Assembly: GCF_003054055.1 (NCBI RefSeq)
Contig: NZ_QBKI01000007.1
Span: 62,001-126,000, forward strand
Direction: 5' to 3'
Length of the DNA: 64,000 nucleotides
From: Pontibacter mucosus
GTDB lineage: Bacteria > Bacteroidota > Bacteroidia > Cytophagales > Hymenobacteraceae
A model generated the notes under the pieces. That model was given only the letters and a program-made list of their open reading frames with translations, was not told the DNA's origin and ran no database searches. Positions 22,075-54,260 of this stretch are shown piece after piece (the first letter of the stretch is position 1; every line of letters starts with the position of its first letter). A program made the translations under genes and the position numbers.

Positions 22075-22087
22075 TATGTCATACATA
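22075..22087. promoter_or_regulatory. Candidate FadR-type operator (GT-N3-AC palindrome)
   Basis: TATGTCATACATA is palindromic except for its centre and contains the GT-N3-AC core typical of FadR-subfamily sites. It lies at the expected transcription start of the SusC operon and 132 bp from the divergent regulator gene. The inner 11 bases (ATGTCATACAT) recur exactly, in reverse complement, at 54221-54231. Confidence 0.5.
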
Positions 22088-22113
22088 AACCATCAACCTT
22101 AACCTCTCACCTT

Positions 22114-25100
22114 ATGAAACTTAAACCATTACTCAGGCTCTTCCTCTGGGGAGTATGTCTGCTCATGGCTCCCCAACTATTTGCCCAGGGGACGACAGTC
22201 AGCGGGCGGGTAATTTCTTCTGAAGATAAGCTGCCACTGATCGGGGTAAGCCTAAATGTAAAAGGTACAGACCGTGGCACCCAGACAGATGTAGAAGGGG
22301 CCTTTACCATTCGCGCGTCGGAGGGCGAGGTGCTCGTAATACGATATCTCGGTTTTGAGTCGCGCGAAGTAATTGTACAGAATAGTGCACAGGTACTGGA
22401 AATCGCGCTGTCGCCAGCCACTGCCAAGCTTGGCGAGGTGGTGGTAGTGGGCTATGGAACTCAAAGCCGCGAAACCCTAACCAATTCAGTGGCAAAGCTG
22501 GATCAGGAAGTACTGGCCAGTACGCCACGCGCCAACGTGGCCACTGCCTTACAGGGTACTGTTCCTGGGGTAAGGGTCGTAAACAGAACTGGGCAGCCTG
22601 GGGCGGCGCCATCTATTTTGCTACGCGGTGGGGCCTCCATTAATAGTCCTGGGGAGCCGCTGGTTATCGTGGATGGCGTGATCAGGTCACTCAATGATGT
22701 TCCTGCAGACAACATAGCTTCTGTAGAGATTCTGAAAGACGCCGCTTCAACAGCTATCTACGGTGCCAGGGCGAACAATGGGGTTATCCTGGTTACCACC
22801 AAGCAGGGAAAAGCCGGCACGGCGCAGGTGACCTATAAATATACCGGTGGCTATAATAAAAGAAGAGAGGGGTATAATTACCTGGGGGCCAGGGATTATA
22901 TCTACTATACCAGGCTGGGTTACCTGAACGCGGGCAGAACCTTAGCGCAGGCTAATTCATCCAGAGGTCTTGGGCTGTTAACGAATCCTGCTGATCTGGC
23001 CACCTTTGATATTCGCAAACTGGATGCCGAAAACAGAAGCCTGCTATCGCAGGGCTGGGAAGTAATGGCAGACCCGTACAACCCCACTGGTGATTCCATC
23101 ATCTTCCGCGATCATGGGGGGGAAGTGGAGGATATTGTGTTTCGGGACACCTATACAAAAGAGCATTATGTAAATGTAATGGGTGGCAATGATAGGGGTA
23201 AATACTTTGCCAGCTTTGACTATTACGACGAGGAAGGCGTGATCGTAGGCTCTGGCTACAAGCGGTATGCTTTCGACGTGAATGGCTCCTATAAAGTGAA
23301 GCCGAACGTGGAGGTGGGTACTGGCGTTACACTCTCGACCTCCTCTCAGATCGGCACCGTAGGCGGTGAGGTAAACACCCTCTACAGAACCCTGGCTATC
23401 TGGCCAACTTTCAACCCATGGTTAGATGAGGCAAAAACACTACCCAACCCGGGGAACGGTTCGAGCGACGGTAACCCACTGTATTGGCTGAATAAGCGCG
23501 AGGTTGATGACGAGGTGAACCGTATCGTGGCTAACGCCTCCGTGAAGTGGGACATTTTGCCGGGCTTATACTTTAGGGGAACCGGTAACGGCTACTTGTA
23601 CGAGAACCTGTTCCTGTCCTTTCAGCGCGCAACCCAAACGTATGCCAATATATTCGCCGCTAACCCGACTAGTAATACCAGCAGGACCTCCACCAATAGT
23701 TTTGACAGGACCTTCCAACAGCAGTATAACGGCCTGTTAAACTATACCACCACATTTGGGGCAAGACACAATATGGACGCCATGGTTGGTGCCGAGTATT
23801 TCGGAACAAAGGCAACCTTTATGCGTGTGCAGGGGCGAGATGCCCCAACGGATGATATTCCTACGGCAAACGCTTCTACCACCTTTGCCCCTGGTAGTAA
23901 TACCAGTTCCATTTCAGAGTACCGTATTGCCTCCGCCTTCGGAAGGCTGAGCTATGATTACGATCAGCGCTACCTGTTCACGGCGGTATTTCGCCAGGAC
24001 GCGGTTTCCAGCTTAGCTGAAGAAAACAGAGTGGGCTTTTTTCCAGGCATGTCAGCAGGGTGGAATGTGCACAAAGAAGCATTCTTTCAGAACGCCGGAT
24101 TGGATAAGTATATCTCTACCTTTAAGCCACGGATCAGCTACGGCGTGAATGGCAACGTGGCCGGCCTGGGTCGGTATGAGGTGCAGGGGGTATATGGACT
24201 TCAGACAAACTATAATGGCAAGGCGGGCTTCCTGAACACCGCCTTCACAAATCCTGGCCTTCGCTGGGAAAAGAGTAAGACTATGGACGTCGGCCTGGAC
24301 ATAGGCTTCCTGAACGACAGAATCTCTATCATAGCCGATTATTTTGACAGAAGAACCAGCGATCTGCTGACCAACCTGGATCTGCCAGGCTACATAGGCT
24401 ACGGTACTTTTAGAACCAACCTGGGTACCTTTCAGAACAAAGGCTTTGAGCTGACGGCCAATGCCGTTGCCCTTAGCTCGCCGGATGGGCTGAACCTGAC
24501 TTTTGGCGCTAATGCTTCCTTTGTGAAAAATAAGATTCTCAAACTGCCTTTCAACGGGAATGAAAACAACAGGCAGGGCGGCCTGCAGGTATATGACCCC
24601 GCCTCGGGAGAGGTGATATGGGTGGGCGGCCTGCAAGAAGGCGGCACTCTGGGTGAAATCTATGGCTTCAAGCAGGTATCTATCTTTAAAGATGAGGCCG
24701 AAATAGAAAGGGTCGCTAACAACAGATATGACGCGATCGCCAAGATCACCGGGCCGGGCCTTCCTGAGGGTGTGGACGGACGCATCACCCCGGGCGACGT
24801 GAACTGGCTGGATGTGGACCGCAACGACACCATTGACACCAGAGACCAGGTGTACCTGGGCAACACTACCCCAAAATGGACTGGTGGTTTCTCCGCAAAC
24901 TTATCCTATAAAGGCTTCTCGCTGTACAGCCGCTTCGAGTTTGCATTGGGGCATACTATCTACAATGACTTGGTGGCCAGAACGCTGGGTAACTACCAGG
25001 GAACCTTTAACTACATCGACCTGATAAAAGACGCCTGGTCGCCCACTAACACCGAGACTGACATCCCGAAGGTATACTTTGCCGATCAGGTGCGGGGCTC

Positions 25101-25419
25101 CAAGCAGAACTATACCAGAGCCAATAACGCTAATGGTACATTGAATGGTAATAACTCCCGCTTCTACGAGAAAGGCGACTACTTGGCCCTACGTGAGATC
25201 ACGCTTTCGTATGATGTGCCGAGCGGATTAGTCTCCAAGACAAGGGTGCTGTCGCAGGCCAGGATTTACACCACTTTCGGCAATCTGTTTTATATCACTG
25301 AATTCACTGGCCCGACCCCGGAGCCACCGGTTGATTCAAGCGGTAGGATAACAGGTGTGTACGTGGGAACCTATCCTACGCCAAGGTCCGCTGTTTTGGG
25401 TGTTCAGGTTACGTTTTAA
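22114..25419 (+). CDS. SusC/RagA-family TonB-dependent outer-membrane transporter (sialoglycan locus)
   Basis: A 1101-aa outer-membrane porin that imports a glycan or sugar captured by the SusD lipoprotein, powered by TonB. A signal peptide (MKLKPLLRLFLWGVCLLMAP) is followed by a carboxypeptidase-like domain (GRVISSEDKLPLIGVSLNVKG, about 30-105). The plug contains GEVVVVGYGTQS near 107-117, LRGGASINSPGEPLVIVDG and VEILKDAASTAIYGARANNGVI. The long beta-barrel ends in SAVLGVQVTF with a terminal aromatic residue. The length is normal. It is first in the operon with SusD and, further on, the sialidases and NanA. Given the neighbours it is a NanO-like sialic acid transporter candidate. Confidence 0.9.
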   Translation: MKLKPLLRLFLWGVCLLMAPQLFAQGTTVSGRVISSEDKLPLIGVSLNVKGTDRGTQTDVEGAFTIRASEGEVLVIRYLGFESREVIVQNSAQVLEIALSPATAKLGEVVVVGYGTQSRETLTNSVAKLDQEVLASTPRANVATALQGTVPGVRVVNRTGQPGAAPSILLRGGASINSPGEPLVIVDGVIRSLNDVPADNIASVEILKDAASTAIYGARANNGVILVTTKQGKAGTAQVTYKYTGGYNKRREGYNYLGARDYIYYTRLGYLNAGRTLAQANSSRGLGLLTNPADLATFDIRKLDAENRSLLSQGWEVMADPYNPTGDSIIFRDHGGEVEDIVFRDTYTKEHYVNVMGGNDRGKYFASFDYYDEEGVIVGSGYKRYAFDVNGSYKVKPNVEVGTGVTLSTSSQIGTVGGEVNTLYRTLAIWPTFNPWLDEAKTLPNPGNGSSDGNPLYWLNKREVDDEVNRIVANASVKWDILPGLYFRGTGNGYLYENLFLSFQRATQTYANIFAANPTSNTSRTSTNSFDRTFQQQYNGLLNYTTTFGARHNMDAMVGAEYFGTKATFMRVQGRDAPTDDIPTANASTTFAPGSNTSSISEYRIASAFGRLSYDYDQRYLFTAVFRQDAVSSLAEENRVGFFPGMSAGWNVHKEAFFQNAGLDKYISTFKPRISYGVNGNVAGLGRYEVQGVYGLQTNYNGKAGFLNTAFTNPGLRWEKSKTMDVGLDIGFLNDRISIIADYFDRRTSDLLTNLDLPGYIGYGTFRTNLGTFQNKGFELTANAVALSSPDGLNLTFGANASFVKNKILKLPFNGNENNRQGGLQVYDPASGEVIWVGGLQEGGTLGEIYGFKQVSIFKDEAEIERVANNRYDAIAKITGPGLPEGVDGRITPGDVNWLDVDRNDTIDTRDQVYLGNTTPKWTGGFSANLSYKGFSLYSRFEFALGHTIYNDLVARTLGNYQGTFNYIDLIKDAWSPTNTETDIPKVYFADQVRGSKQNYTRANNANGTLNGNNSRFYEKGDYLALREITLSYDVPSGLVSKTRVLSQARIYTTFGNLFYITEFTGPTPEPPVDSSGRITGVYVGTYPTPRSAVLGVQVTF

Positions 25420-25440
25420 GGCTAGTAAACTGCTTAGATC

Positions 25441-26973
25441 ATGAAAAAGAGTATCATATATTTTATTTCGCTCATCGGGACAGTAACGATGCTGGCAAGC
25501 TCCTGCTCTGATAAGCTGGATGTTGCACCGGTAAGCTCCATCAGTGACGCCAATTACTGGAAAACACCTGACCAGGTGGATGCTTTTGTGACAGGTGTTC
25601 ATGCCAGGTTCCGAGGGCATAACGCAAACTTCCGGACATTGGGAGAGTTACGAGCGGACATATTTGGGCAGGATCCCGGTTCCAGCGCTTCCTTTACAGG
25701 TGCGGCCTCCCAAGGACTGGAGCGCCTTTGGCTGCAGGCCTTAGACCCTAATGATGCTGGTGTCAGTGGGTTCGGAGGGTTTTACTCCAACATCGCCCAG
25801 ATTAATTTGCTCATCAGTAAACTCAACACCATTGATGTGGTGGCGCCTGCCACAAAGGATTACTACCTGGGCATTGCTTATGGGATGCGGGCCTTCTATT
25901 ACTTTCAGATGTACAGAACCTGGGGTGATGTCGTGATACAGACAGAGCCTATCTCTACGATTGACGTGGCCAACCTGGCGAAGCCTGCCTCCAGTCAGGA
26001 AGAGGTGATGAAACTGATCAAGGCTGATATTGATAGCTCCAATGTTAATTTCGGAGAAAACTACACCTTCAGGGAAGGCAAGTCCTTATGGTCAAAATCA
26101 GCCACCCAGATGCTGAAGGCGGAGGTCTATCTGTGGACGGGCCACAGAGGCAGCGGAGCGGCAGACGCCCAGGTGGCGAAGAATGCCTTAACCGATATTC
26201 AGGCCAATGCGCCTGGGTTAAGCTTGCTTTCCAGCTTTTCGGATGTTTTCGCGGCCAATAGCAAAGGGAATGCAGAAATTATCTTCGCTAGTCGCTACCT
26301 GTTAAACGAGGCGACCCAGGGGATAGGCTCTTTTTTGCCAGCGACGGCGAGCCTTGCAAACTTCTACGACTCCTTGGAAAACCGGCAGTTTTCCGTTGCG
26401 GTGGATAACTGGGGGGGAGTGTTGCGCGTGCCTGTCAAGGTTTCCACCTTCAGGGCCTTTGACGACAAGGACAGCCGGAAGTGGACCACCATTCAGCCGG
26501 CCTACTCGAAAGTTGGGGGTAACTATGTCATCGCCGGGGCATTTGTGAAGAAGTTCCAGGGAGAACAGAACGCCGGCACGCGTCAGTACACCAATGATTT
26601 TCCTATCTACCGTTATGCGGATCTTCTATTGTTGCTGGCAGAAGCCAAACTGATCCTGGGCGAAGACCCTGCTGCTGAGATAAATGCAGTCCGCCAGCGA
26701 GCCTATGGCACTAACTACGATGCTGCGGTGCACGGTTATCCTAACCAGCCGGTTGATGCCAATCCACAGGAGGCTATTTTGAGGGAGCGCTTCTTCGAGT
26801 TCATATTTGAAGGGAAGCGTTGGTACGACCTGCGCAGAATGGGTGACAGCTTCGTTTATGCGCATACGACCCTCTCGCCGGAGGAGTCCTACAAGTTGCT
26901 TTGGCCTATCGACAGGGGATCTCTGACAGATAACAGAGCCCTGAAGCAGAATCCAGGATATCCTGAGTTCTAA
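25441..26973 (+). CDS. SusD/RagB-family surface glycan-binding lipoprotein
   Basis: A 510-aa lipoprotein. The leader MKKSIIYFISLIGTVTMLAS ends at a lipobox (ASSC), followed by the SusD helical TPR-like fold: DANYWKTPDQVDAFV, MRAFYYFQMYRTWGDVVI, KAEVYLWTGHRG, PIYRYADLLLLLAEA and the closing EFIFEGKRWYDLRRMGDSFVY. It ends in the typical LKQNPGYPEF. It starts 21 bp after the SusC stop and is the partner that caps that transporter at the cell surface. From about 25.1 kb to 29.1 kb there are no AAGTATA words, in contrast with the following operon genes. Confidence 0.92.
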   Translation: MKKSIIYFISLIGTVTMLASSCSDKLDVAPVSSISDANYWKTPDQVDAFVTGVHARFRGHNANFRTLGELRADIFGQDPGSSASFTGAASQGLERLWLQALDPNDAGVSGFGGFYSNIAQINLLISKLNTIDVVAPATKDYYLGIAYGMRAFYYFQMYRTWGDVVIQTEPISTIDVANLAKPASSQEEVMKLIKADIDSSNVNFGENYTFREGKSLWSKSATQMLKAEVYLWTGHRGSGAADAQVAKNALTDIQANAPGLSLLSSFSDVFAANSKGNAEIIFASRYLLNEATQGIGSFLPATASLANFYDSLENRQFSVAVDNWGGVLRVPVKVSTFRAFDDKDSRKWTTIQPAYSKVGGNYVIAGAFVKKFQGEQNAGTRQYTNDFPIYRYADLLLLLAEAKLILGEDPAAEINAVRQRAYGTNYDAAVHGYPNQPVDANPQEAILRERFFEFIFEGKRWYDLRRMGDSFVYAHTTLSPEESYKLLWPIDRGSLTDNRALKQNPGYPEF

Positions 26974-27076
26974 ACCAATCCAAGGGCGGTGGCGCAGGCC
27001 TTCCCTTATTTGTCAGGTGCAAGCCGAGTAGGCATGTCTGAGAGCATGATAGAAAAACAGCTGCCAGGAAGACAAC

Positions 27077-27256
27077 ATGCGTGCCATTCTGGAGGAGGGC
27101 CGGCGCTGGTGGTCGATCCGCAGAGCCGGAAACGAGTGGGTGTTTGCCTACGTGGACCAGGTATACCTGGCCCCGGGACAGGAGTACAAACTGCTGCCTA
27201 TCTCGGTGGGCATGCTCAACTCCGACCCTAAACTGACACAGACGCCGGGGTATTAA
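27077..27256 (+). pseudogene. C-terminal remnant of a second SusD-like protein
   Basis: A 59-codon open frame encodes ILEEGRRWWSIRRAGNEWVF, continues with YLAPGQEYKLLPISVG and ends PKLTQTPGY. This is the unmistakable C-terminus of a SusD/RagB protein, matching the EGKRWYDLRR ... NPGY end of the intact gene just upstream but clearly different in sequence. Everything upstream of it is missing; a stop (TAG) lies nine codons before the first Met. It sits between the intact SusD gene and a sialidase gene. It is probably the scar of a deleted or replaced SusC/SusD pair rather than a functional gene. Confidence 0.78.
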
Positions 27257-27289
27257 AGCTTTGTTAAACTATAACCATATCGCGCATAG

Positions 27290-28537
27290 ATGAAAGTAGC
27301 AATGAAAAGCATCCGCAGCTTGTCGTATTACCCCTTGCTCATAGGCCTTGTATGGTTGTTTGCATGTCAGTCGAAAGACCACATGGAAGTGCAGCCTATC
27401 AATAAGATAGAAGCCAGCAGGCTGGGGCCTTTTGTGGATACGGCAAATATAGCCAGGACTGTGCTCTTTGGTAATGACATTGAAGGGGTTAACTTCGTGC
27501 GTATTCCCGGGTTAGCTAAAACTAAGAAGGGAACCTTGATTGCTGTATGCGACGCAAGGGTAGAGACCAACAATGATTTGCCCAACAATATCGATTGCAT
27601 CATTCGCCGCAGTAGTGATGATGGGAGAACATGGGGTGAGGTTCAGACAGTGTTGAATATGCCTGGAGAGGAAGGTGTAAGCGACCCTTCGATATTGGTA
27701 GACCAAGTAACCGGAACTATCTGGATATTCTTAAACTACAGCAAGGCAGGAGTTGGAGTCGGTACCTCCCAGCCTGGATATGGTGATGATACCATTCATA
27801 TCTTGGCAGTAAGGAGTGATGATGATGGCCTGACCTGGTCTGAGCCAGTGGACATAACTCGGTCGGTAAAGGCTGAAGACTGGCGCTATGTTATCTCTTC
27901 TCCTGGCCATGGCATACAGTTGAAAGATGGTACACTTCTGCAAACAGGCTATTACGCTGTCCCGAATACGATCAGCAGGAACCCACGTGCCTTTGCTTTC
28001 TATAGCAAAGACCATGGCCGTACTTGGCAGAGAACAAAGCCTGTGGCACAGCGTGTAACAGAAGGAATGGCCGTACAATTGGAAGATGGACGTATCCTGA
28101 TGAACATGCGCGGCCAAGTAAATGCAAGGGCTTTGTCCTACAGCAGCGACCTGGCAGGAGCCTGGAGTGCACTGGAGTATGACCAGACATTGGTTGAACC
28201 TGGCTGTCAAGCCAGCATTATCAAACTGCAGCATGGACCTGCAAAGGGCAAGGATTGGCTGGTTTTCGGGAATCCTGCCGCCACCACCCGTTCAAACTAT
28301 ACACTAAGGCTGAGTCTGGATGGGGGCAAATCATGGGTAAACTCCCTGCCTCTGTGGTCTCAGGGTGCTGGTTATTCTGATATAGTTGAGCTTAGTAATG
28401 GTGACCTAGGTGTACTTTATGAAAAATGGGGCGGCAGAGGATCGAAAGCAGTTCTTGAGTTTGCACGTGTACCAAAGCAGTTACTAATCGGTAAAAGCTT
28501 TCTGCCGGGCTCTGCTGCATCTCCCATAAATGACTAA
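27290..28537 (+). CDS. Exo-alpha-sialidase, GH33 (first of three), lipoprotein
   Basis: A 415-aa sialidase that releases terminal sialic acids. A lipoprotein leader ends in WLFAC (Cys26). The catalytic beta-propeller begins at FVRIPGL, with the first active-site Arg at 71, followed by the acidic loop NNDLPNNID. Asp-box repeats are SSDDGRTW, SDDDGLTW, SKDHGRTW and SLDGGKSW. NMRGQ and TTRSNY provide the other carboxylate-binding arginines, and GYSDIVELSNGDLGVLYE the Tyr/Glu region. Base composition is visibly more AT-rich than in the other two sialidase genes. It follows a SusD remnant and lies in a zone lacking AAGTATA words, so a separate origin is plausible. Confidence 0.9.
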   Translation: MKVAMKSIRSLSYYPLLIGLVWLFACQSKDHMEVQPINKIEASRLGPFVDTANIARTVLFGNDIEGVNFVRIPGLAKTKKGTLIAVCDARVETNNDLPNNIDCIIRRSSDDGRTWGEVQTVLNMPGEEGVSDPSILVDQVTGTIWIFLNYSKAGVGVGTSQPGYGDDTIHILAVRSDDDGLTWSEPVDITRSVKAEDWRYVISSPGHGIQLKDGTLLQTGYYAVPNTISRNPRAFAFYSKDHGRTWQRTKPVAQRVTEGMAVQLEDGRILMNMRGQVNARALSYSSDLAGAWSALEYDQTLVEPGCQASIIKLQHGPAKGKDWLVFGNPAATTRSNYTLRLSLDGGKSWVNSLPLWSQGAGYSDIVELSNGDLGVLYEKWGGRGSKAVLEFARVPKQLLIGKSFLPGSAASPIND

Positions 28538-28611
28538 TATCGAAAGGTATTGTCTGGTACACTTTTCCTGTAGGATGGGGAGAATATACATTTACATACA
28601 CATAAATTAGA

Positions 28612-29550
28612 ATGATAAAACACTTACAGGGGCTCATCGCGGCTCCGTTTACGCCCATGCACGCTGATGGCAGCCTGAACCTGGCGCTGATCCCATCCTA
28701 CTATAGCCTGCTGAAAACAAATGGGAATACAGGGGCCTTTATCTGCGGATCCACCGGGGAGGGCGTGTCGCTGACACTGGAGGAGAAGAAGCAGGTAGCC
28801 GAGGCCTGGGCCGAGGCTACCAAAGGCGACGATGACTTTAAGGTGATCACGCTGGTGGGCGGCACCTGCCTGCAGGATGCCATCGACCTGTCGCGGCACG
28901 CGCAGCGTATCGGCCTGTACGCCGTGTCGTTTACGGCCCCTTCCTACTTTAAGCCCGCCTCGGTGCAGGTGCTGGCCGAGTGCTGCAAAGCGGTGGCTGA
29001 TGCTGTGCCGCAGATGGCCTTCTATTACTACCACATTCCGGTGCTGACGGGGGTGGGTTTCCAGATGATAGACCTGCTCAGAGAGGTGGAGGGAAGCATC
29101 CCTAACTTTGCGGGCATCAAGTATACGCACGAGGATTTCATGGATTTCCTGTCCTGCCTGCGCTTCAGCAACGGCAAGTACGACATGCTGTGGGGCCGCG
29201 ACGAGAACCTGCTGTCTGCCCTGGTACTGGGGGCCAAGGGCGGTGTGGGCAGCACCTACAACTATGCCGCCCCGCTCTACACCAGCTTGATAGAAGCCTT
29301 TGAGCAGGGCGACCTGGAGAAGGCCCAAGGCCTGCAGCAGCAGTCCATCGATATGATCCGCCTGCTGGGCAAGTATGGCGGCATTGCCACCGGAAAAGCC
29401 TACATGAAACTGATCGGCCTCGACTGCGGCGCGTTCCGTCTGCCAGTCCGCAACATGGGTACAGCGCAGTTCCAGTCTTTTAAAGAGGATGTGGCCGCAC
29501 TGGGTTTTGACGAATACTGCTCCCGCGCACCTGAAACGAAATTTGCCTAA
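28612..29550 (+). CDS. nanA: N-acetylneuraminate lyase (dihydrodipicolinate synthase family)
   Basis: A 312-aa cytosolic class I aldolase cleaving N-acetylneuraminate to ManNAc and pyruvate. The family features are GSTGEG at 46-51, the catalytic Tyr in YYYHIP (Tyr140), and the Schiff-base Lys170 in GIKYTHED. GAKGGVGSTYN and a NanA-like C-terminus follow. Related enzymes of the superfamily act on other 2-keto acids, but the neighbours (sialidases, a mutarotase-transporter and a 2-epimerase) make NanA the best call. It is followed 10 bp later by the mutarotase-transporter fusion, so co-transcription is expected. Confidence 0.92.
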   Translation: MIKHLQGLIAAPFTPMHADGSLNLALIPSYYSLLKTNGNTGAFICGSTGEGVSLTLEEKKQVAEAWAEATKGDDDFKVITLVGGTCLQDAIDLSRHAQRIGLYAVSFTAPSYFKPASVQVLAECCKAVADAVPQMAFYYYHIPVLTGVGFQMIDLLREVEGSIPNFAGIKYTHEDFMDFLSCLRFSNGKYDMLWGRDENLLSALVLGAKGGVGSTYNYAAPLYTSLIEAFEQGDLEKAQGLQQQSIDMIRLLGKYGGIATGKAYMKLIGLDCGAFRLPVRNMGTAQFQSFKEDVAALGFDEYCSRAPETKFA

Positions 29551-29559
29551 CACAGTCTG

Positions 29560-32241
29560 ATGAAAAGTATCCTGCCAACACTTCTTTTTCTACTCGCCTT
29601 TACCGTGGGCCGGGCAGAACAGCAAAAGCCTAATAACCTGGAGTGGTCTGTTGCTGCCACACTTCCTGCCTCTCCCGGGCAGGCAGTGCAGCCGGGCCTG
29701 GCCGGTCCGGTGGGGGGCGTGCACAACAACGCGCTGCTGCTGGGCGGTGGGGCCAACTTCCCGGAGGGCATGCCCTGGGAGGGAGGAAAGAAAAAGTATT
29801 GGCAGGATATTTTCGTCTTGCTGAAGGACGGGCAAGGCAAGTATAGCTGGCACGACAAAACCTTTCAGCTGCCGCAGCCGCTGGCCTACAGCGCCAACGT
29901 GGCCACCCCACAGGGTGTGGTAAGTATAGGCGGGGAGAATGAGCAGGGCATCCAGAACACGGTACTGCTGTTGCAGTGGAACCCCGCCTCCAAAGATGTG
30001 AAGGTGGAGGCGCTGCCGGCACTGCCGCTGCCCCTCACCAATGCTGCCGCAGCCGTCATCGGCAACCAGGTTTACGTGGCAGGCGGCGAAACCACGGGCA
30101 AGGCCAGCAACGGCTTTTACCGCTTAAACTTATCCTCACTTTCCAAAGGCTGGGATCAACTGCCGGAGCTGCCAAAAGCACTGTCGCATGCGGTGGCGGT
30201 GGTGCAGTCCAACGGCGAGTACCCGGCTTTATACCTGATTGGCGGCAGGGCCAGAACCGAGTCCGGCGTGAGCGAACTCTATGGCTCTACTTTCCGCTAC
30301 GATCCGAAAAAGAACAACTGGAAACAACTTAGCAACATCTCCGACGGCAAGGGCAACGAAACAACGCTCTCTGCCGCTACCGGCGTTATCACCGGGGCCA
30401 ACTACATCCTTGTCTTCGGGGGCGACAAAGGCAATGTCTTCACACAGATAGAGCAGCACAACGCCGCCATCGCCCGCACCACCGACGAGGCCGAGAAGGC
30501 AAGGCTGGAGGCTTCGCGCCTGGCCCTTCAGACCCAGCACGAGGGCTTCAGCAAAGACATTTACCTCTACAACACTGTTACCGACGCCTGGACTAAGTCC
30601 AGCGAGCTGCCTTATGCGCCCGTTACCACCTTTGCCACCCGCTGGGACAACGACATCCTGATCCCTTCCGGCGAAATCAGGCCGGGGGTGCGCACGCCGG
30701 AGGTGCTCAAAGGCAATCTCGCGCCACAGCATTACTTCGCCTGGCTCGACTACGTGGTCGTGGTGTTATACTTGCTGCTGATGGTGGGCATTGGCATGTG
30801 GACCTCCCGCAACCAAAGCACCACTGACGACTACTTCCGCGGCGGGCAGCGCATACCGGGCTGGGCCGCTGGCCTGAGCATCTACGGCACACAACTCAGC
30901 GCCATCACCTTCATGTCCATCCCGGCCAAGACATACGCCACGAACTGGAACTACTTTATACTTCAGATGACCATTATCCTGGTCATTCCGGTTATTACCA
31001 CCTACTTCATTCCGTTTTACCGCAAGTTGCAGATAACCTCGGCTTACGAGTACCTGGAGAAGCGCTTTAACTACGTGGCGCGCGCCCTGGCCTCGTTGCT
31101 CTACATCATGCTGCAGCTCGGTCGCCTGGCCATCGTGCTCCTGCTGCCGAGCCTGGCGCTTACCCTGGTGACAGGCATTAACGTGAACCTGTGCATCCTG
31201 CTGATGGGCATAATTACAATCTTTTATACCATGAAGGGCGGCATTGAGGCCGTGGTATGGACGGACGTGGCGCAGGTGGTTATACTTTTAGGTGGCGCCC
31301 TGGTGTGCCTGGTGATGATCCCATTCCAGTTGGAGGCCGATGCCAGCACGATCTGGCAAACTATCCAGCAAAACGAGAAGCTCAATATTATCGACCTCAC
31401 TTTCAGCTTTAATGAGCCCACGCTGTGGGTGGTAGTGCTGGGTGGCCTGGCTATCAACGTGATCTCCTATGGTACTGACCAATCGGTGGTGCAGAAATAC
31501 CTGACCACAAAAAACGAGGCGGAGTCGAAGAAAAGTATGCGTTTGGGTGCCTGGATGGCGCTGCCTTCGGCTATCATCTTCTTCTCGATCGGAACCATGC
31601 TGTACCTGTTCTTCCGGGAGCACCCGGAGAAGGTGAACTACCAGCTGCAAAGCCAGGACGCTATCTTCCCATGGTATATCGTAACGGAGCTTCCGGCGGG
31701 CATCACCGGCCTATTGATTGCCGCCATATTCGCAGCGGCCATGTCTACCCTGAGCAGCAGCATGAACTCGGTGACCACGGCCATCATCACCGACTTTTAC
31801 AGGCGTTTTGTGCCGACCAAGTCAGACAAGAGCTACCTGAGCACCGCCAAGTACATCACCCTGACGATAGGCGTGGTGGGCACCTCGCTGGCGCTGGTGA
31901 TGGCACAATGGGGCATCTCCTCGCTCTGGGACCAGTTTAACACTATACTTGGCCTGTTCACCGGCGGCCTGGGCGGCTTGTTCGTGCTGGGTATTTTCAC
32001 CAAGCGCGCCAACGCCAAAGGGGCCATCACAGGGCTTCTGCTAAGCGGGCTGGTGCAGTTTTATATCAGCCAGTACACCAACATCAACCTGCTGCTCTAT
32101 GCCTTCACCGGGTTGGCATCCTGCGTGACGTTCGGGTACCTGTTCAGCCTGCTTTTCGGCGGCCAGGAGCGCGAGCACGAGGGCCTGACGATCTATGAGA
32201 GCGAGGCGCAGCGCAGCAAGGTGAGGGAGAAGGTGATGTAA
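29560..32241 (+). CDS. Fusion of N-acetylneuraminate mutarotase (Kelch) and sodium:solute symporter
   Basis: An 893-aa two-part protein. After a signal peptide (MKSILPTLLFLLAFTVGRA), residues 25-390 form a Kelch beta-propeller of the NanM type (GGVHNNALLLGGGANFPEGMPWEGGKK is diagnostic; VYVAGGETTG, LYLIGGRA and LVFGGDKG are further blades). This domain should lie in the periplasm and interconvert sialic acid anomers. From about 391 (FAWLDYVVVVLYLLLMVGIG) there is a full sodium:solute symporter with 13 or so membrane helices (TTDDYFRGGQRIPGW, TFMSIPAKTYATNW, AAAMSTLSSSMNSV). Anomer conversion is thereby tied to inner-membrane uptake. The domain boundary is continuous in one frame with no sign of assembly joining. 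Confidence 0.92.
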   Translation: MKSILPTLLFLLAFTVGRAEQQKPNNLEWSVAATLPASPGQAVQPGLAGPVGGVHNNALLLGGGANFPEGMPWEGGKKKYWQDIFVLLKDGQGKYSWHDKTFQLPQPLAYSANVATPQGVVSIGGENEQGIQNTVLLLQWNPASKDVKVEALPALPLPLTNAAAAVIGNQVYVAGGETTGKASNGFYRLNLSSLSKGWDQLPELPKALSHAVAVVQSNGEYPALYLIGGRARTESGVSELYGSTFRYDPKKNNWKQLSNISDGKGNETTLSAATGVITGANYILVFGGDKGNVFTQIEQHNAAIARTTDEAEKARLEASRLALQTQHEGFSKDIYLYNTVTDAWTKSSELPYAPVTTFATRWDNDILIPSGEIRPGVRTPEVLKGNLAPQHYFAWLDYVVVVLYLLLMVGIGMWTSRNQSTTDDYFRGGQRIPGWAAGLSIYGTQLSAITFMSIPAKTYATNWNYFILQMTIILVIPVITTYFIPFYRKLQITSAYEYLEKRFNYVARALASLLYIMLQLGRLAIVLLLPSLALTLVTGINVNLCILLMGIITIFYTMKGGIEAVVWTDVAQVVILLGGALVCLVMIPFQLEADASTIWQTIQQNEKLNIIDLTFSFNEPTLWVVVLGGLAINVISYGTDQSVVQKYLTTKNEAESKKSMRLGAWMALPSAIIFFSIGTMLYLFFREHPEKVNYQLQSQDAIFPWYIVTELPAGITGLLIAAIFAAAMSTLSSSMNSVTTAIITDFYRRFVPTKSDKSYLSTAKYITLTIGVVGTSLALVMAQWGISSLWDQFNTILGLFTGGLGGLFVLGIFTKRANAKGAITGLLLSGLVQFYISQYTNINLLLYAFTGLASCVTFGYLFSLLFGGQEREHEGLTIYESEAQRSKVREKVM

Positions 32242-32323
32242 GTATAAATCATAGTCTTTTAAAGTATAAACACAAGTATAAAGCGGCGCTGAAAGTCGCA
32301 GCAAGTATAAAACACAAAGTATA
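32242..32323 (+). repeat. Intergenic cluster of five AAGTATA words
   Basis: The 82-bp gap between the symporter and sialidase genes contains five copies of AAGTATA in the same orientation. They include AAAGTATAAAC, CAAGTATAAAG and AAAGTATAATG, the last overlapping the sialidase start. This is one of the densest clusters in the window. Confidence 0.75.
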
Positions 32324-33895
32324 ATGACTAGAGCCAAAGGTATCCTGTGCTGCCTGTTGCTGGTGCTTTTCTGTAGCGTGAGCTGCACCAGAAGCGTAAA
32401 CAAATCGGTTCCCGCAGTGAGCGGGATAAGTATAACGAGTACTGCCCCGGCCGTGCCTGTGCTGCGGGGCACGGAGCATAACCCGGTGGTGCGCGTAACG
32501 ATGTACGTGCCGGCGGGCGGCGAAAGTATAAATTTCCAAAGTATAAAAGGCCGGCTCAACAGCACAGCCCTGCAGGATGTGGAGAAACTGGATGTATACT
32601 TTACAGGCTCTGAGGCGCTGTTCAAAACCGATAACCTGGTAAAGTCTATCCGGCCGACGACAGAGGAGTTTGAGGTGCCGCTGCGCATTCAGGCCAAGCC
32701 GGGCAAGCACTACATCTGGTTCAGCGTCACCCTGAAGGAGACGGCCAACATCGACAACAAAGTGGCGTTGCACGCTACCCAACTGACAGACGCGGCTGGC
32801 AAAGTATACCCTGTAGCAGAGGATGGCACGGAGCATACCAAACGCATGGGCATTGCCCTGCGCAAGGCCGGCGAGGACGGCTCGCACACCTACCGCATCC
32901 CGGGCATCGCCACCACCGACAAAGGCACCCTGATTGCCGTGTACGACATCCGCTACGACAACGCCCGCGACCTGCCGGCCAACATCGACGTGGGCATGAG
33001 CCGCAGCACCGACGGCGGCAAAACCTGGGAGCCGATGAAGATCATCATGGACATGGGCGAGCCGCACGAAAACAACGGCATCGGCGACCCATCCATCCTT
33101 TTTGACCCCGCCACCGGCAAAATCTGGGTGGCGGCGCTGTGGAGCAAGGGCAACCGTTCCATTGCCGGTTCCGGCCCCGGCCTCTCGCCGGACGAGACAG
33201 GGCAGTTTGTGCTGGTGAGCAGCGACGACGACGGTAAAACCTGGTCGGAGCCGTACAGCATCACCGAGCAGATCAAGAACCCCGACTGGCGCATCTACTT
33301 CAACGGTCCCGGCAACGGCATCGTGATGCAGAACGGCACACTGGTGTTCCCGTCGCAGTACTGGGATGAGAACAAGATGCCGCACTCTTCGGTCATCTAC
33401 AGCCAGGATAACGGCAAAACCTGGAAGAGCGGCATCGGCGCAAAGGCCAACACCACCGAGAGCCAGGTAGTAGAAACTACACCCGGCACCCTGATGCTGA
33501 ACATGCGCGACAACCGCGGCCGCTTCCGCTCCGTGGCCACCACCACCGACCTGGGCCAGACCTGGGTAGAGCACCATACGTCCTACAGCGCCCTGCCGGA
33601 TCCGGTGTGCATGGCCGGTTTCATCAAAGCCGACGTGAGCACGAAGAATGGGAAAGAGGAAGTTCTTTTCTTCAGCAATGCCGCCACGTCCTACGGCCGC
33701 TATGACATCACGCTCAAAGCCAGCACCGACCTGGGCGAGACCTGGCCCGCGGCCAACGCCCTGCTGGTAGACGAGCGCGGCACGTACGGCTACTCGGCCC
33801 TCACCAAAATCGACGACAACACCATCGGCCTGCTCTACGAGGGTGTGCGCGAGTTATACTTTGTGCGCATTCCGGTAAGTGAAGTGCTAAACTAG
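32324..33895 (+). CDS. Exo-alpha-sialidase, GH33 (second), with N-terminal accessory domain
   Basis: A 523-aa lipoprotein (MTRAKGILCCLLLVLFCSVS then Cys). Residues about 45-165 form the beta-sandwich accessory domain typical of large Bacteroidota NanH proteins (NPVVRVTMYVPAGGESINF). The six-bladed propeller starts with HTYRIPGIATTDKGTLIAVY near 186 and the acidic loop ARDLPANID. Asp boxes STDGGKTW, SDDDGKTW and SQDNGKTW, the LNMRDNRGR arginine and the C-terminal YGYSALTKIDDNTIGLLYE nucleophile region follow. It follows the transporter fusion, with a run of AAGTATA words in the gap. It is probably surface-anchored and the main desialylating enzyme. Confidence 0.93.
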   Translation: MTRAKGILCCLLLVLFCSVSCTRSVNKSVPAVSGISITSTAPAVPVLRGTEHNPVVRVTMYVPAGGESINFQSIKGRLNSTALQDVEKLDVYFTGSEALFKTDNLVKSIRPTTEEFEVPLRIQAKPGKHYIWFSVTLKETANIDNKVALHATQLTDAAGKVYPVAEDGTEHTKRMGIALRKAGEDGSHTYRIPGIATTDKGTLIAVYDIRYDNARDLPANIDVGMSRSTDGGKTWEPMKIIMDMGEPHENNGIGDPSILFDPATGKIWVAALWSKGNRSIAGSGPGLSPDETGQFVLVSSDDDGKTWSEPYSITEQIKNPDWRIYFNGPGNGIVMQNGTLVFPSQYWDENKMPHSSVIYSQDNGKTWKSGIGAKANTTESQVVETTPGTLMLNMRDNRGRFRSVATTTDLGQTWVEHHTSYSALPDPVCMAGFIKADVSTKNGKEEVLFFSNAATSYGRYDITLKASTDLGETWPAANALLVDERGTYGYSALTKIDDNTIGLLYEGVRELYFVRIPVSEVLN

Positions 33896-33904
33896 AAAAC
33901 GGCG

Positions 33905-33940
33905 ATACACCTGCCCGGCTATACTTTCGGGCAGGTGTAT
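33905..33940 (+). terminator. Hairpin terminator with TATACTT in its loop
   Basis: A perfect 13-bp stem (33905-33917 with 33928-33940) encloses a 10-base loop containing TATACTTT. It follows the sialidase stop by 10 bp and precedes the esterase gene by 17 bp, so it may only attenuate transcription within the operon. Confidence 0.7.
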
Positions 33941-33956
33941 TGTATTCATATCTGCC

Positions 33957-36032
33957 ATGACGCGTTTCCTACTACTTTTTATCGCTTTTATACTTGCTAT
34001 ACCCGGGTATTCGCAGCAAGCCACGGCCCGGCTGAAAGTAGCCTGTATTGGCAACTCCGTAACCTACGGCTACGGAATCGAAGACAGAGAGCAAAAGGCT
34101 TATCCGGCGCAGCTCCAGCATTTGCTCGGGCCAAAGTATGAAGTAGGTAATTTCGGGTTGAGCGGGGCTACGCTGCTGCGGAAGGGCCACCGGCCCTATA
34201 CCCAAACCCAGCAGTACCAGGATGCCCTTGCCTTTGAGCCTGACATTGCCGTTATCCACCTGGGCCTCAACGATACCGATCCGCGCAACTGGCCCAACTA
34301 CCGCGATGAGTTTGCCGCAGACTACTACCACCTGATAGACACGCTGCGGGCCGTGAACCCGGAAGTACGCATCCTTATCTCCCGGCTCACGCCCATCTTC
34401 TCGGGGCACCCGCGCTTTGCGTCCGGCACCCGTGACTGGTACTGGCAAATTCAGGAGCTGATACCTGTCATCGCTGAAAACAGAAACGTGGAGCTGATGG
34501 ACCTGCACACCCCGCTCTACAGCCGCCCTGACCTGTTTCCGGACGAGCTGCATCCCACTGCCGAGGGTGCGGGCATTATAGCGAAAACCGTGTTCGGGCA
34601 CCTGACAGGCAAGTATGGCGGCTTAAGGTTGGCGCCCGCTTTCTCCGACCACATGGTGCTTCAGCAGCAAATGCCGGTTCCGGTGCAGGGCATTGCCGAT
34701 GCCGGGCAGGAGGTAACCGTGCGGTTTAACGGAACGGAGGTAAAGACCAACCCCGGCCCTGACGGGAAATGGAAAGTCATACTTCCGCCTCAGAAAGCAG
34801 GAGGGCCGTTTCAACTGCAGGTTTCTACTCAGGATAAAAGTATAAGTATAAACGATGTGCTGGTGGGGGAGGTATGGCTGAGCTCCGGGCAGTCGAACAT
34901 GGCTTTTCCGCTGGCAGCGGCCCAGGGTGGGAAAGAGGAGCTGCGGCAAGCGCAGCAGCTTTCAAACGTTCGCCTGTTAAACCTGAAGCCGCTTGCCGAA
35001 ACGGGTAATTTCGCCTGGGACTCGCTCACGCTGCACCAGGTAAACCAACTGGCCTACTTCTCGGGCTCCTGGCAGCGGGCCGACTCAGCGACGGCAAGGG
35101 ATTTCTCGGCGGTGGCCTATTACTTTGGCAAGCAATTGCAGGAGGAGCTAAACGTGCCTATCGGACTGATACAGGTAGCTGTGGGCGGCTCTACCACCGA
35201 GTCGTGGATTGACCGCTATACGCTGGAGCACCACCCGCAGCTGGTGCACATGCTGCATAACTGGCGCAAGTCGGATTTTGTGATGGGCTGGGCCCGGGAA
35301 CGAGCCGGCGTAAACGTGCAAGCCGCAAAAGCAGTAAAGCAGCGCCATCCCTACGAACCGGCTTATAACTACGAGGCAGGCATTGCCCCGCTCATCGGTT
35401 TTCCTATTAAAGGCGTGATATGGTACCAAGGCGAGAGCAACGCCCACAACATCGAGCTACATGAAGAACTGTTTAAGACACTGGTGAACAGCTGGCGCGA
35501 GAAATGGGGCTATGATTTCCCCTTCTACTACACGCAGCTCTCCAGCATCAACCGCCCCAGCTGGCCGCACTTCCGCGACAGCCAGCGCCGCCTGTTCTCG
35601 CAGGTAGACAACACCGGCATGGCCGTCACAAGCGATGTTGGCGATGCGCAGGACGTGCACCCGACGCAGAAGAAGCAGGTAGGGGAGCGGCTGGCGGCCT
35701 GGGCCCTGGCTAAAACCTACGGCAAGCGCTTACCCTACAGTGGTCCGCTGTTCAAGGAGGCGCAGTTCTCGGGCAACCAGGCTGTCTGTACGTTTGAGCA
35801 CGGCAAGGGACTGCAGGCTAGCGACGGCGCGACCCTCCGCGGCTTTGAGGTAGCGGGCAGCGACAGGATATTCAGAGCGGCCAAGGCCGAGGTGCGGGGT
35901 AACAAAGTATGGGTGTCTTCGGAGGAAGTGCCTGCGCCGAAGTACGTGCGCTACGCCTGGGAGCCTTACACGACGGCCAACCTTGTTAATAAAGCGGGCC
36001 TGCCAGCCTCTACGTTCACCTCAACCAAGTAA
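33957..36032 (+). CDS. Two-domain sialate O-acetylesterase (SGNH + SASA)
   Basis: A 691-aa exported esterase removing O-acetyl groups from sialic acids so that sialidase and lyase can act. A signal peptide (MTRFLLLFIAFILAIPGYSQ) is followed by an SGNH/GDSL hydrolase (about 25-215) with IGNSVTYG (catalytic Ser), HLGLNDTD and DELHPTAEG. The SASA domain (about 220-690) follows: FSDHMVLQQQMPVPVQG, VWLSSGQSNM (catalytic Ser), GVIWYQGESN and DVHPTQK. Dual-domain NanS enzymes of this layout are known in oral and gut Bacteroidota. It starts 17 bp after the hairpin and runs straight into the epimerase gene (14-bp gap). Confidence 0.9.
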   Translation: MTRFLLLFIAFILAIPGYSQQATARLKVACIGNSVTYGYGIEDREQKAYPAQLQHLLGPKYEVGNFGLSGATLLRKGHRPYTQTQQYQDALAFEPDIAVIHLGLNDTDPRNWPNYRDEFAADYYHLIDTLRAVNPEVRILISRLTPIFSGHPRFASGTRDWYWQIQELIPVIAENRNVELMDLHTPLYSRPDLFPDELHPTAEGAGIIAKTVFGHLTGKYGGLRLAPAFSDHMVLQQQMPVPVQGIADAGQEVTVRFNGTEVKTNPGPDGKWKVILPPQKAGGPFQLQVSTQDKSISINDVLVGEVWLSSGQSNMAFPLAAAQGGKEELRQAQQLSNVRLLNLKPLAETGNFAWDSLTLHQVNQLAYFSGSWQRADSATARDFSAVAYYFGKQLQEELNVPIGLIQVAVGGSTTESWIDRYTLEHHPQLVHMLHNWRKSDFVMGWARERAGVNVQAAKAVKQRHPYEPAYNYEAGIAPLIGFPIKGVIWYQGESNAHNIELHEELFKTLVNSWREKWGYDFPFYYTQLSSINRPSWPHFRDSQRRLFSQVDNTGMAVTSDVGDAQDVHPTQKKQVGERLAAWALAKTYGKRLPYSGPLFKEAQFSGNQAVCTFEHGKGLQASDGATLRGFEVAGSDRIFRAAKAEVRGNKVWVSSEEVPAPKYVRYAWEPYTTANLVNKAGLPASTFTSTK

Positions 36033-36045
36033 AAAATCTCCCGAT

Positions 36046-37227: not shown

Positions 37228-37365
37228 ATTTTGAATGAGTGCTTGAGTGAATGTGTGAATGATCATCTCAGACCACTCAACTTTCTAACCTTCTAACTTT
37301 CTAACTCCAGCGCCGCAAGGTGTTGCGGCGCTACAACTCTTAAACTCTTTAACTCTATAACTATA
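37228..37365 (+). repeat. Low-complexity CTAACTC spacer with hairpin ahead of third sialidase
   Basis: This 138-bp gap contains CTTTCTAAC/CTTCTAAC/CTAACTCC repeats at 37281-37307. A perfect 10-bp hairpin AGCGCCGCAA/TTGCGGCGCT lies at 37309-37332. More TTAAACTC/TTTAACTC variants follow up to the start codon. It resembles the tract before aroB. Confidence 0.55.
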
Positions 37366-43328: not shown

Positions 43329-43423
43329 TTTGTGCTTAAGCATCTGTTAGCAAAGTATAAAAAGTATAAGCCAGGGAATTTCGGCGGTGGGAGAGGATGT
43401 ATACTTTTAGGAAGACACACTAT

Positions 43424-44686: not shown

Positions 44687-44689
44687 GGT

Positions 44690-47375: not shown

Positions 47376-47395
47376 ACCTTTACCTTCCCAACTAA

Positions 47396-47435
47396 AAAAC
47401 GCCTCCTGCAGTCGACTAACTGCAGGAGGCGTTTT
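47396..47435 (+). terminator. Strong rho-independent terminator after PNGase F
   Basis: A 17-bp perfect stem (47396-47412 with 47419-47435, core CGCCTCCTGCAGT) with a 6-base loop ends in a T run, 20 bp past the stop. It separates the sialoglycan block from the ROK-SusC/D block. Confidence 0.9.
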
Positions 47436-47734
47436 CTATTTGTGGCATCCCCTCGGGCTGCGGGTTTTTAGAAATCCATCAAAAAAAATCGGTGTAACTT
47501 TTAATAAATCCCATTATTAATTCATTCCGGTTTAGTGCCGTGCGTGTGCGAATACATTGGTGGAACGCCTTTTTAATGTACTATTTTTATTGGTAAAGTG
47601 TAAAGGTGATTAATTACTCAAAGTTGTCCTATCTTTTTAAAAAAATCGATAAAGTTTTTTTTTATTAAAAAAAGTTCGTCTACCTTGGTAACAATTCCGT
47701 AACACAAGCTTTAAAAAATAATATCCCTGATTCG
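47436..47734 (+). promoter_or_regulatory. AT-rich promoter region of the ROK operon
   Basis: A 300-bp AT-rich leader. TACCTTGG at 47681-47688 is one mismatch from the TAnnTTTG element and equals the element predicted at 54209-54216. No clear -33 TTG at the right distance was found. No AAGTATA word lies in this region. Confidence 0.4.
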
Positions 47735-48955
47735 ATGTTTGATAAGCAGGTTACCTATAAGAGGAACATCGTGAAGCACCTGTACTTTGCAGGAGAGCTC
47801 TCATGTGCGGACCTCAGCACGCTTACCAACAAGAGTGTGCCCCTTACTGCCCGGATGCTGAACGAGTTAATCGGCGAGGGAACTATAGTGGAGAAGGGAT
47901 ATGCGGTTTCCACTGGCGGAAGGAGACCCCTGATGTACTCGCTGAAGCCGGACCTGATGTATATCGTCTCGGTGGCCATGGACCAGCTTGTTACCCGCAT
48001 TGCCCTGCTGGATATGCATAATAACTATGTCGGGGAGGTGCATAGCATAGATCTGCCCCTGGCAGGCAACCCCAACGCCCTCCGTGACCTGGGCCAACAC
48101 CTGAAAGAATTCCTAAAGCAAGCAAAGGTACCTAAAAACAGCATTATCGGTGTTGGGGTAGGCATGCCTGGCTTTGTGGATGTTGTGAAAGGAGTCAATC
48201 ACTCGTTCTTAAAAGTAGAGGAAGGTAACAGTATCATCAGCTACCTGGAGTCTGTCATTAAACTTCCGGTGCTGATAGATAACGACTCGAGCCTGGTGGC
48301 CCTGGCAGAGCACAAGCTCGGGGCGGCCAAAGACAGGCAGAACGTGATGGTGCTGAGCATAGGCTGGGGCATTGGCCTGGGCATGGTGCTGGACGGGGCG
48401 CTCTTCAGGGGGCACAATGGTTTTGCCGGCGAGTTCAGCCACATCCCCATCTTTATGAACAACAAGATGTGCAGCTGCGGCAAGAGCGGGTGCCTCGAGA
48501 CAGAGACCTCGCTGGTGGTAGTGGCTGAGCGGGCGGTGAAAGGGCTGCAGGAAGGAAGGGTGTCGATGCTGCAGGGGCTTAGCCTGGATGATATGGAGGC
48601 CACCTCCAATGCCATTATGGAGGCTGCCCTGAAAGGCGACCGCTTTGCGATAGAGCTGTTTTCCGAAACGGCCTATAATATTGGCAGGGGCGTGGCCACG
48701 CTTATCCACCTGCTTAACCCGGAGCTGATAGTGCTCAGCGGCCGCGGCTCCCTGGCCGGAAAACTCTGGATGGCTCCCATCCAGCAGGCGATAAACGAGC
48801 ACTGCATCCCCAAGATCGCCGAAGATACAGAGATCAGGATTTCCACGTTTGGGTACCAGGCCGAGATTATTGGCGCAGCCGCGCTGGTGATGGAGCATTA
48901 CGATACCCTGCGTTTAGCGAAGAGTAAAACGGCTGGCGACCACCAGGTCGTTTAG
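47735..48955 (+). CDS. ROK-family (NagC-like) transcriptional regulator
   Basis: A 406-aa protein. The first 75 or so residues form a winged helix (NIVKHLYFAGELSCADLSTL, ... GYAVSTGGRRPLMYSL), which separates it from ROK sugar kinases. The ROK domain follows with GVGVGMPGFVD, LIDNDSSLVALAEHKLGAA and the zinc motif GEFSHIP...CSCGKSGC near 237-252. NagC-type members sense amino-sugar derivatives such as GlcNAc-6-P. Given the upstream sialic acid and N-glycan genes, a hexosamine signal is plausible. It lies 76 bp ahead of SusC on the same strand, so it may regulate its own operon. Confidence 0.9.
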   Translation: MFDKQVTYKRNIVKHLYFAGELSCADLSTLTNKSVPLTARMLNELIGEGTIVEKGYAVSTGGRRPLMYSLKPDLMYIVSVAMDQLVTRIALLDMHNNYVGEVHSIDLPLAGNPNALRDLGQHLKEFLKQAKVPKNSIIGVGVGMPGFVDVVKGVNHSFLKVEEGNSIISYLESVIKLPVLIDNDSSLVALAEHKLGAAKDRQNVMVLSIGWGIGLGMVLDGALFRGHNGFAGEFSHIPIFMNNKMCSCGKSGCLETETSLVVVAERAVKGLQEGRVSMLQGLSLDDMEATSNAIMEAALKGDRFAIELFSETAYNIGRGVATLIHLLNPELIVLSGRGSLAGKLWMAPIQQAINEHCIPKIAEDTEIRISTFGYQAEIIGAAALVMEHYDTLRLAKSKTAGDHQVV

Positions 48956-49031
48956 CCCGATGTAGTACCCATATATAAATTAAATTCTAACTAACGGTTT
49001 CAAAAATTTTTTACAATCAAAACTGTTTTCT

Positions 49032-52157: not shown

Positions 52158-52177
52158 TCAAATAAAGCAATTCGATT

Positions 52178-54082: not shown

Positions 54083-54113
54083 AAAATGTTAATTCAATAC
54101 TAAGTCCTGCTAG

Positions 54114-54146
54114 AGTCCTGCCCGCCTAAAAAGCGCGGGCAGGACT
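54114..54146 (+). terminator. Terminator after the second SusC/SusD pair
   Basis: A 12-bp stem (core GTCCTGCCCGC/GCGGGCAGGAC, 54114-54125 with 54135-54146) ends in TTT, 32 bp past the SusD stop. Confidence 0.85.
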
Positions 54147-54220
54147 TTAAACGGGCAGTTTGCCCTATTATAAAGAAGGTTTTGCATTGAAAGCAAAATC
54201 TTTTTTTATACCTTGGCAAT

Positions 54221-54260
54221 ATGTATGACATGAAACAAAAAACTGACATTTGTCATACTT
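54221..54260. promoter_or_regulatory. Paired GT-N3-AC operator candidates
   Basis: ATGTATGACAT at 54221-54231 is the exact reverse complement of the core of the site at 22075-22087. TTGTCATACTT at 54250-54260 is an inverted second site. They begin four bases after the predicted -7 element, at the expected transcription start. Confidence 0.5.

Follow-up and report, generated by a model that had tools for sequence, protein, structure and literature searches.

Two SusC operons within a 64,000-nucleotide stretch of the Pontibacter mucosus genome (family Hymenobacteraceae; assembly GCF_003054055.1, contig NZ_QBKI01000007.1, positions 62,001–126,000 of the forward strand; hereafter the window, numbered from its first letter) carry the same palindromic 11-mer at their promoters. 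One of these is a sialic acid (nan) operon and the other a unit encoding GH16 and sulfatase proteins, which raises the question of whether a single regulator, encoded divergently from the nan genes, acts on both. An earlier analysis of the DNA letters (the sequence-only reading) had proposed such a link. Here, we find the 11-mer to be part of a longer, 17-bp palindrome, and consider it probable (roughly 0.8) that this palindrome is the operator of the divergent FadR-type regulator, which would repress the nan genes, its own gene, and further glycan units until released by a metabolite. What the compared genomes show directly is the operator, how conserved it is, where it lies, and that it occurs together with the regulator gene.

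The shared palindrome and the nan promoter

The 11-mer ATGTCATACAT occurs at 22076–22086 on the forward strand and at 54221–54231 on the reverse strand, both as claimed, and each copy is preceded by the predicted −7-like element (TATGTTTA at 22066–22073 and TACCTTGG at 54209–54216, respectively). Dinucleotide shuffles of the window gave an expectation of 0.03 matches for the two observed (0/100 shuffles contained two), and a scan of the whole genome (5.23 Mb) returned no match beyond these copies. The reversed-pattern control, however, matched the genome three times, indicating that two copies per genome is about chance level; what is unusual is that both copies lie no more than 32 kb apart (~1% by random placement) and that each sits right after a −7-like element. 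A second inverted site, suggested at 54250–54260 (TTGTCATACTT), is present but weak, with two mismatches to the 11-mer and, as the 17-mer CATTTGTCATACTTTTT (54247–54263), a score of 11.0 bits, below every one of the 35 training sites of the matrix used (12.6–28.7 bits). It is not retained in the relatives G129 or G083 and is probably non-functional alone.

Alignment of the sites shows a unit larger than 11 bp, with a core, TAWGTNNNACWTA, that extends to the 17-bp palindrome ATTATGTNNNACATAAT (the sites described here are given without a strand). The exact core is present in 34/34 orthologous regions divergent from the regulator gene, where dinucleotide shuffles predict 0.155, in agreement with the earlier suggestion that the GT-N3-AC palindrome fits a FadR-type regulator. 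In the window, operator O1 (ATTATGTCATACATAAA, 22073–22089, 26.4 bits) lies upstream of the nan SusC gene (SusC1), holds the first 11-mer, and is the top-scoring position of the 322-kb contig.

The −33/−7 promoter consensus used here is TTTG-N19-TAnnTTTG. The SusC1 promoter (22043–22073, forward strand) comprises TTTG at 22043–22046, a 19-nt spacer, and the TATGTTTA element noted above, with O1 starting on the final base of the −7 element. The same register is shared by 27 of the 34 regions, where the last base of a TAnnTTTA octamer on the SusC strand is also the first of the operator. In a further four, a −7-like octamer has its end six bases ahead of the operator; the remaining three, all Adhaeribacter-group rows, show no clear register. 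In this count, the L083 row, for which a spurious A/T palindrome had been picked, was scored as a miss. Since the operator would cover the nan start site, repression is the simplest reading.

A further operator, O2 (TATATGTCTAACTTAAG, 21954–21970, 16.5 bits), absent from the sequence-only reading, lies just upstream of the regulator start codon and is presumed to serve autoregulation. A second, regulator-nearer site (at most one mismatch, GT/AC intact) was found in 10/16 regions within the family and 18/18 outside it, in 17 of which it starts no more than 62 bp from the regulator start, and a CAnnTTTG octamer (one mismatch to the −7 consensus) overlaps it in 14 rows outside the family. Published FadR-subfamily divergons contain double sites, each near its own gene, as here (PMC4494728). 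The nan gene run itself (22114–38532, forward strand; Pfam/NCBIfam), a presumed operon, encodes in order SusC1, SusD1, a sialidase, a NanA-type lyase, a NanM-SSF transporter fusion, a sialidase, a SASA/GDSL esterase, an N-acylglucosamine 2-epimerase, and a sialidase.

The divergent GntR/FCD regulator

The presumed binder is a 234-a.a. protein encoded at 21239–21943 on the reverse strand, divergent from the first site and, as had been stated, the sole GntR/FCD gene among the 44 window open reading frames (ORFs) scanned against Pfam (of 112 listed, the rest being mostly short or overlapping). It consists of an N-terminal GntR winged helix-turn-helix (PF00392, 58.6 bits; curated cut-off 27) and an all-helical FCD domain (PF07729, 62.4 bits; curated cut-off 24.3; helices in the AlphaFold2 model), with no ROK domain detected by Pfam. 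The AlphaFold2 model built from a deeper alignment is of moderate quality (pLDDT 76.6, pTM 0.60; earlier model pLDDT 69.4), and the solved structures closest to it are those of a Streptococcus GntR protein, DhdR, NanR, PmiR, and VanR, with FadR also among the fold relatives. The closest named regulator, from P. chinhatensis, is 97% identical, in a comparison where the records nearest to the window's own may be left out.

The protein shares with Escherichia coli NanR the winged helix-turn-helix and FCD architecture and a location beside sialic acid genes. The Zn/N-acetylneuraminic acid (Neu5Ac) pocket of E. coli NanR comprises D172, H176, H222, H244, R128, and others (PMC8012715), and its metal ligands and carboxylate-binding arginine align to E153, H157, H201, H223, and R109, respectively, all five of which are invariant in the 34 orthologs. 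One metal ligand, Asp172, is thus Glu153 here, and E. coli NanR recognises GGTATA direct repeats, unlike the GT-N3-AC palindrome found here (PMC8012715, PMC4494728). The NanR family model NF003011 also fails (87.1 bits; cut-off 260). The regulator is NanR-like in position and probably in signal, but by family model and operator is not a member of the E. coli NanR type.

Conservation across relatives and co-occurrence with sialic acid genes

Strong orthologs of the regulator (75–97% identity) were identified in 15 relatives, giving 16/150 genomes of the family when P. mucosus is included; nine of the 25 regulator matches were weak (24–38% identity) and were not counted as orthologs. A NanA-type lyase was found in exactly the same 16 of the 150 genomes. 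Each of the 15 relatives has the regulator gene divergent from its nan genes and carries TAWGTNNNACWTA without mismatch upstream of SusC (of a SusD remnant in G019). With the motif fixed beforehand, a peptide-pattern scan of the genome collection then returned 30 loci, 12 of which (L161–L171, L174) were left out as repeats of genomes already counted. The 18 new loci, all outside the family (Dyadobacter, Chitinophaga, and one Cytophagaceae metagenome-assembled genome (MAG)), each contain the exact core site (18/18), which at L189 precedes a NanA-type gene without SusC.

The nan SusC is just 41–45% identical in 8/15 family relatives; G123, with a regulator of 97% identity, is among them. The SusC/SusD pair (22114–26973; relatives L071–L085) thus varies beside a regulator of 80–97% identity, with operator and regulator constant, as in the exchange of a receptor cassette.

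The predicted regulon in the glycan cluster

We constructed a 17-bp matrix from 35 unique sites of relatives, excluding P. mucosus itself and G123, its closest relative, and ran it over the 322-kb contig. The six top positions all fall within the glycan cluster: O1 (26.4 bits), a site in the divergent GH20/MFS region (24.6 bits, contig 154619), O4 (22.4 bits), O3 (18.4 bits), a GH125 site (17.8 bits, contig 136858), and O2 (16.5 bits). These six positions of at least 16 bits compare with 0.4 expected under an order-3 Markov model and 0.86 with permuted columns (0/200 permutations reached six). A second matrix of 20 unique sites, drawn only from loci outside the family, gave ranks 1–4 to O1, GH20/MFS, O4, and O3, in that order, and rank 6 to O2. 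Both operons of the sequence-only reading are included, but the predicted regulon is wider, extending to the regulator itself, an FGE-type gene, GH125, and the GH20/MFS pair.

O4 (19849–19865) precedes the FGE-type gene; it falls within the ORF counted from the first ATG (18723–19895) but ahead of the likely true start. In two orthologs, this long ORF is interrupted by stops at residues 19 and 24, and three others begin at residues 52–57; the start of the FGE-sulfatase-domain protein is thus likely Met58 (18723–19724, reverse strand; Pfam and ortholog starts), which places the site upstream of the gene. It is followed by a gene for a GFO/IDH/MocA protein (17366–18685; Pfam). At the GH20d promoter, sites of at least 14 bits were present in 7/10 loci with a strong regulator match and 0/20 without, among the 30 fetchable loci; two of the negatives are 81–83% identical, and the other 18, at 61–69%, may be paralogs. 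By eye, neither GH125 nor GH20/MFS displays a promoter as clear as that at nan.

The neighbouring cluster (contig 126–156 kb) includes GH84, GH20, sulfatase, GH29, GH20, GH125, an asparaginase-family protein, CutC, GH29, GH20, GH92, GH20, and MFS genes, and looks like a cluster for the breakdown of N-glycans and sulfated host glycans. Two further contig sites, at window positions −6807 and 152137 (13.4 and 15.0 bits), were not counted among the regulon members, and a weak candidate in the window (ATTAAGTTCAACAAAAA, 60012–60028, 15.9 bits), which abuts the GH16 start, may be due to chance.

The SusC3/GH16/sulfatase unit

The other of the two operons, the third SusC operon of the window, encodes SusC3, SusD3, GH16, and two sulfatases (54645–63941, forward strand; Pfam). 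Upstream of SusC3 lies O3 (AATATGTATGACATGAA, 54218–54234), which holds the second 11-mer and ranks fourth in the 322 kb with both matrices. It is preceded by a candidate upstream promoter, P1 (54186–54216, forward strand), of the form ATTG-N19-TACCTTGG, which ends one base before the 17-bp operator and is aligned in G123, G129, and G083.

The proposed coordination of nan with SusC3 finds comparative support. The GH16 unit is present in 12 genomes (P. mucosus and the examined stretches of 11/15 relatives), and a site of at least 14 bits precedes the unit, or its extracytoplasmic function (ECF) sigma factor gene, in eight of them (P. mucosus, G123, G129, G115, G067, G008, G087, and G019), with the SusC3 site of G083 (13.7 bits) falling under the cut-off and outside the eight. 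In the 1,500 bp upstream of each of 20 non-orthologous SusC genes, no site of at least 14 bits was found (maximum 10.0), a control span beyond which the ECF-linked sites lie (~2.4 kb from SusC3).

The arrangement of these sites differs between genomes. In G008, G087, and G019, the SusC3 ortholog (with an extra STN domain, checked in G008) stands behind ECF sigma and FecR genes, and a site of 22–25 bits is located 65, 56, and 336 bp ahead of the sigma gene, respectively (L215, L221, and L227). G115 carries two strong sites (22.6 and 20.5 bits) at other positions before SusC3, and in G067, where no SusC3/SusD3 ortholog was found in the stretch, the block of P1, operator, and second promoter (P2, below) sits before GH16. 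The SusC3 link therefore seems to have arisen on two or three occasions.

Across the relatives' clusters (1.10 Mb), we counted 50 sites of at least 14 bits, where permuted matrices gave 11.4 on average (0/100 permutations reached 50). Regulator/nan regions account for 27, and the other 23 precede SusC3 or GH16 (7), GH20d/MFS (6), GH125 (3), the ECF sigma gene of the SusC3 operon (3), GH20b (2, one 655 bp away), and a ROK gene (1), or lie between convergent genes (1).

In an alignment of the SusC3 upstream region of six genomes, the best conserved block (54345–54464) contains a candidate second promoter, P2 (TATGTTTA at 54402–54409), flanked by the CG-centred palindromes TTGCGTTTTCGAACACA (54345–54361) and GCGTGTTTAAACGTGTACGAA (54444–54464). 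The CG-centred palindromes also occur in G109 and G081, which are without a FadR-type site at this position. Given the conservation of P2 and these palindromes, a second regulator of SusC3 is likely, and in this genome the FadR-type protein would likely gate P1 alone.

Alternative readings and proposed mechanism

Several observations weigh against the operator reading or against its reach beyond nan. Genome-wide, exact TAWGTNNNACWTA occurs at 19 places and its reversed control at 15, which is no real excess, and TATGTNNNACATA at one mismatch occurs at 77 places against 105 for its control; enrichment therefore has to be judged through location and conservation. By location, eight of the 19 exact places fall on the contig, which represents 6.2% of the genome (p ~8e-6). 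Given the control count of 15, the 11 places off the contig are probably background for the most part: ten of these, inspected by eye from the first residues of the flanking ORFs with no family search, did not precede an obvious amino-sugar gene, and the two above 16 bits (16.3 and 18.9) are taken as background, the higher of which outscores O3. Sites of at least 18 bits are expected 0.13 times per 322 kb, or about two per genome, rendering the O3 score unexceptional genome-wide. Among the 100 permuted matrices run over the relatives' clusters, the highest yield was 43 sites, and four gave at least 23. The GH125 site is missing from the 12 best positions of the outside-family matrix and reaches 14 bits in 4/16 regulator-positive rows against 0/10 negative rows, with medians of 5.2 and 5.0 (p 0.49), and O4 has a site in just 2/9 orthologous upstream regions. 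As close relatives share inheritance, site counts per genome are not independent events. Regarding the effector, the other Neu5Ac contacts of NanR, besides Arg128 and the metal ligands, are not conserved in the alignment, which is unconvincing at these positions.

At SusC3, G083, G109, G081, and G060 have no site of at least 14 bits before the gene (8.5 or less in the last three), O3 decays in G129 and G083, and P2, ~180 bp downstream of O3 and associated with unrelated palindromes, is better conserved than P1. Together with the chance expectation for an O3-like score and the weakness of the second inverted site, these points favour the strongest alternative, namely that the operators at nan and at the regulator's own promoter are real and the SusC3 11-mer is a coincidence or decaying relic, with SusC3 controlled at P2 only by another regulator. 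We regard this as unlikely, given that 8/12 genomes have a site before the GH16 unit in three arrangements against 0/20 other SusC upstream regions, and that G067 retains the promoter–operator block before GH16 even where SusC3/SusD3 was not found in the stretch.

It is less probable still that the regulator activates at some targets, or represses itself only, with the nan or SusC3 sites not blocking transcription; certain FadR-subfamily proteins do also activate, as GntR1/2 at ptsG (PMC2230225), but the nan operator would cover the start site in 31/34 regions (the 27 that share one base with the −7 octamer and the four that start six bases after it). Binding by a different regulator, such as the ROK-family protein encoded in the window at 47735–48955, of the family in which the predicted Bacteroides thetaiotaomicron NanR (BT0433) is listed (PMC3878776), is very improbable and was rejected, as the site tracks the divergent region of the GntR/FCD gene at 34/34 loci, including those of Dyadobacter and Chitinophaga, and GT-N3-AC is the FadR-subfamily core (PMC4494728, PMC2230225).

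In the preferred reading, repression by the FadR-type regulator, the 21239–21943 protein would occupy ATTATGTNNNACATAAT immediately past the −7 element, where it would span the transcription start, and in doing so repress its own gene and the nan genes. The same protein would also act on other units of the roughly 75-kb glycan cluster. Further predicted targets are the SusC3/SusD3/GH16/sulfatase genes, through P1 alone, together with the FGE-type gene, GH125, and the divergent GH20/MFS pair. A metabolite of sialic acid breakdown (Neu5Ac, N-acetylmannosamine, or N-acetylglucosamine (GlcNAc)) is the probable ligand of the metal-containing FCD pocket and would release the repressor. Binding, repression, and effector are what we infer here from the genomes.

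More tentatively, and at somewhat less than even odds, this may be a sialic acid regulator of the FadR type, present in several genera of Bacteroidota, that couples uptake to a whole super-cluster for host glycans (N-glycans and sulfated glycans), its SusC/GH16/sulfatase link having been rebuilt more than once. The link could then take three forms (the upstream promoter, other positions before SusC3, and control of the ECF sigma gene), and the regulator might be set apart from E. coli NanR by its family model and its operator, and from the NanR of Bacteroides by the protein family to which it belongs.

Comparison with known systems

The A/T-rich GT-N3-AC palindrome and the double sites of the divergon resemble those of the FadR-subfamily regulons described by Suvorova et al. 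in 2015 (PMC4494728), but the consensus box there is TKGT/ACMA, whereas the boxes around the core here are mostly AWGT/ACWT, and the sites nearer the regulator have TTGT half-sites in Dyadobacter and the Cytophagaceae MAG. The table of that compendium has 634 FadR-subfamily transcription factors in 36 groups, with no Bacteroidetes member. The AusR protein of Zobellia galactanivorans is likewise a Bacteroidota GntR repressor that acts at several promoters of polysaccharide utilization loci (PULs) and is released by degradation intermediates, but at alginate rather than sialoglycan loci (PMC7874173, PMC8286568). A predicted sialic acid/GlcNAc regulon is also known in Bacteroidota from B. thetaiotaomicron, where BT0433, as noted above, belongs to the ROK family and not to GntR/FCD (PMC3878776).

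While the kind of switch is familiar, this regulon seems to be undescribed, as we found no description of a GntR/FCD sialic acid regulon in Bacteroidota in the open-licence literature searched, which does not prove its absence from print. Most described PUL regulation in Bacteroidota is local (hybrid two-component systems, SusR, ECF/FecR). In this cluster, one cytoplasmic sensor, probably of a sialic acid metabolite, appears to coordinate several units, and release of the capping sugar could serve as a cue that the glycan beneath is open to attack. From this concrete operator, targets can be predicted in Pontibacter, Rufibacter, Adhaeribacter, Dyadobacter, and Chitinophaga, and the nan locus provides an example of an operator held constant while the adjoining receptor pair is exchanged.

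Other features of the window

The ROK-family protein (47735–48955, 406 a.a.) lies between the PNGase-like and SusC2 genes and contains ~118 residues before its ROK match. It may be a second sugar-responsive regulator; in G055, a 15.9-bit site precedes its ortholog. Elsewhere in the window, an IS4/5-type transposase is present as two overlapping ORFs (14117–14963), and a protein with RhuM-family and Fic/DOC domains (5564–6712) is encoded amid housekeeping genes.

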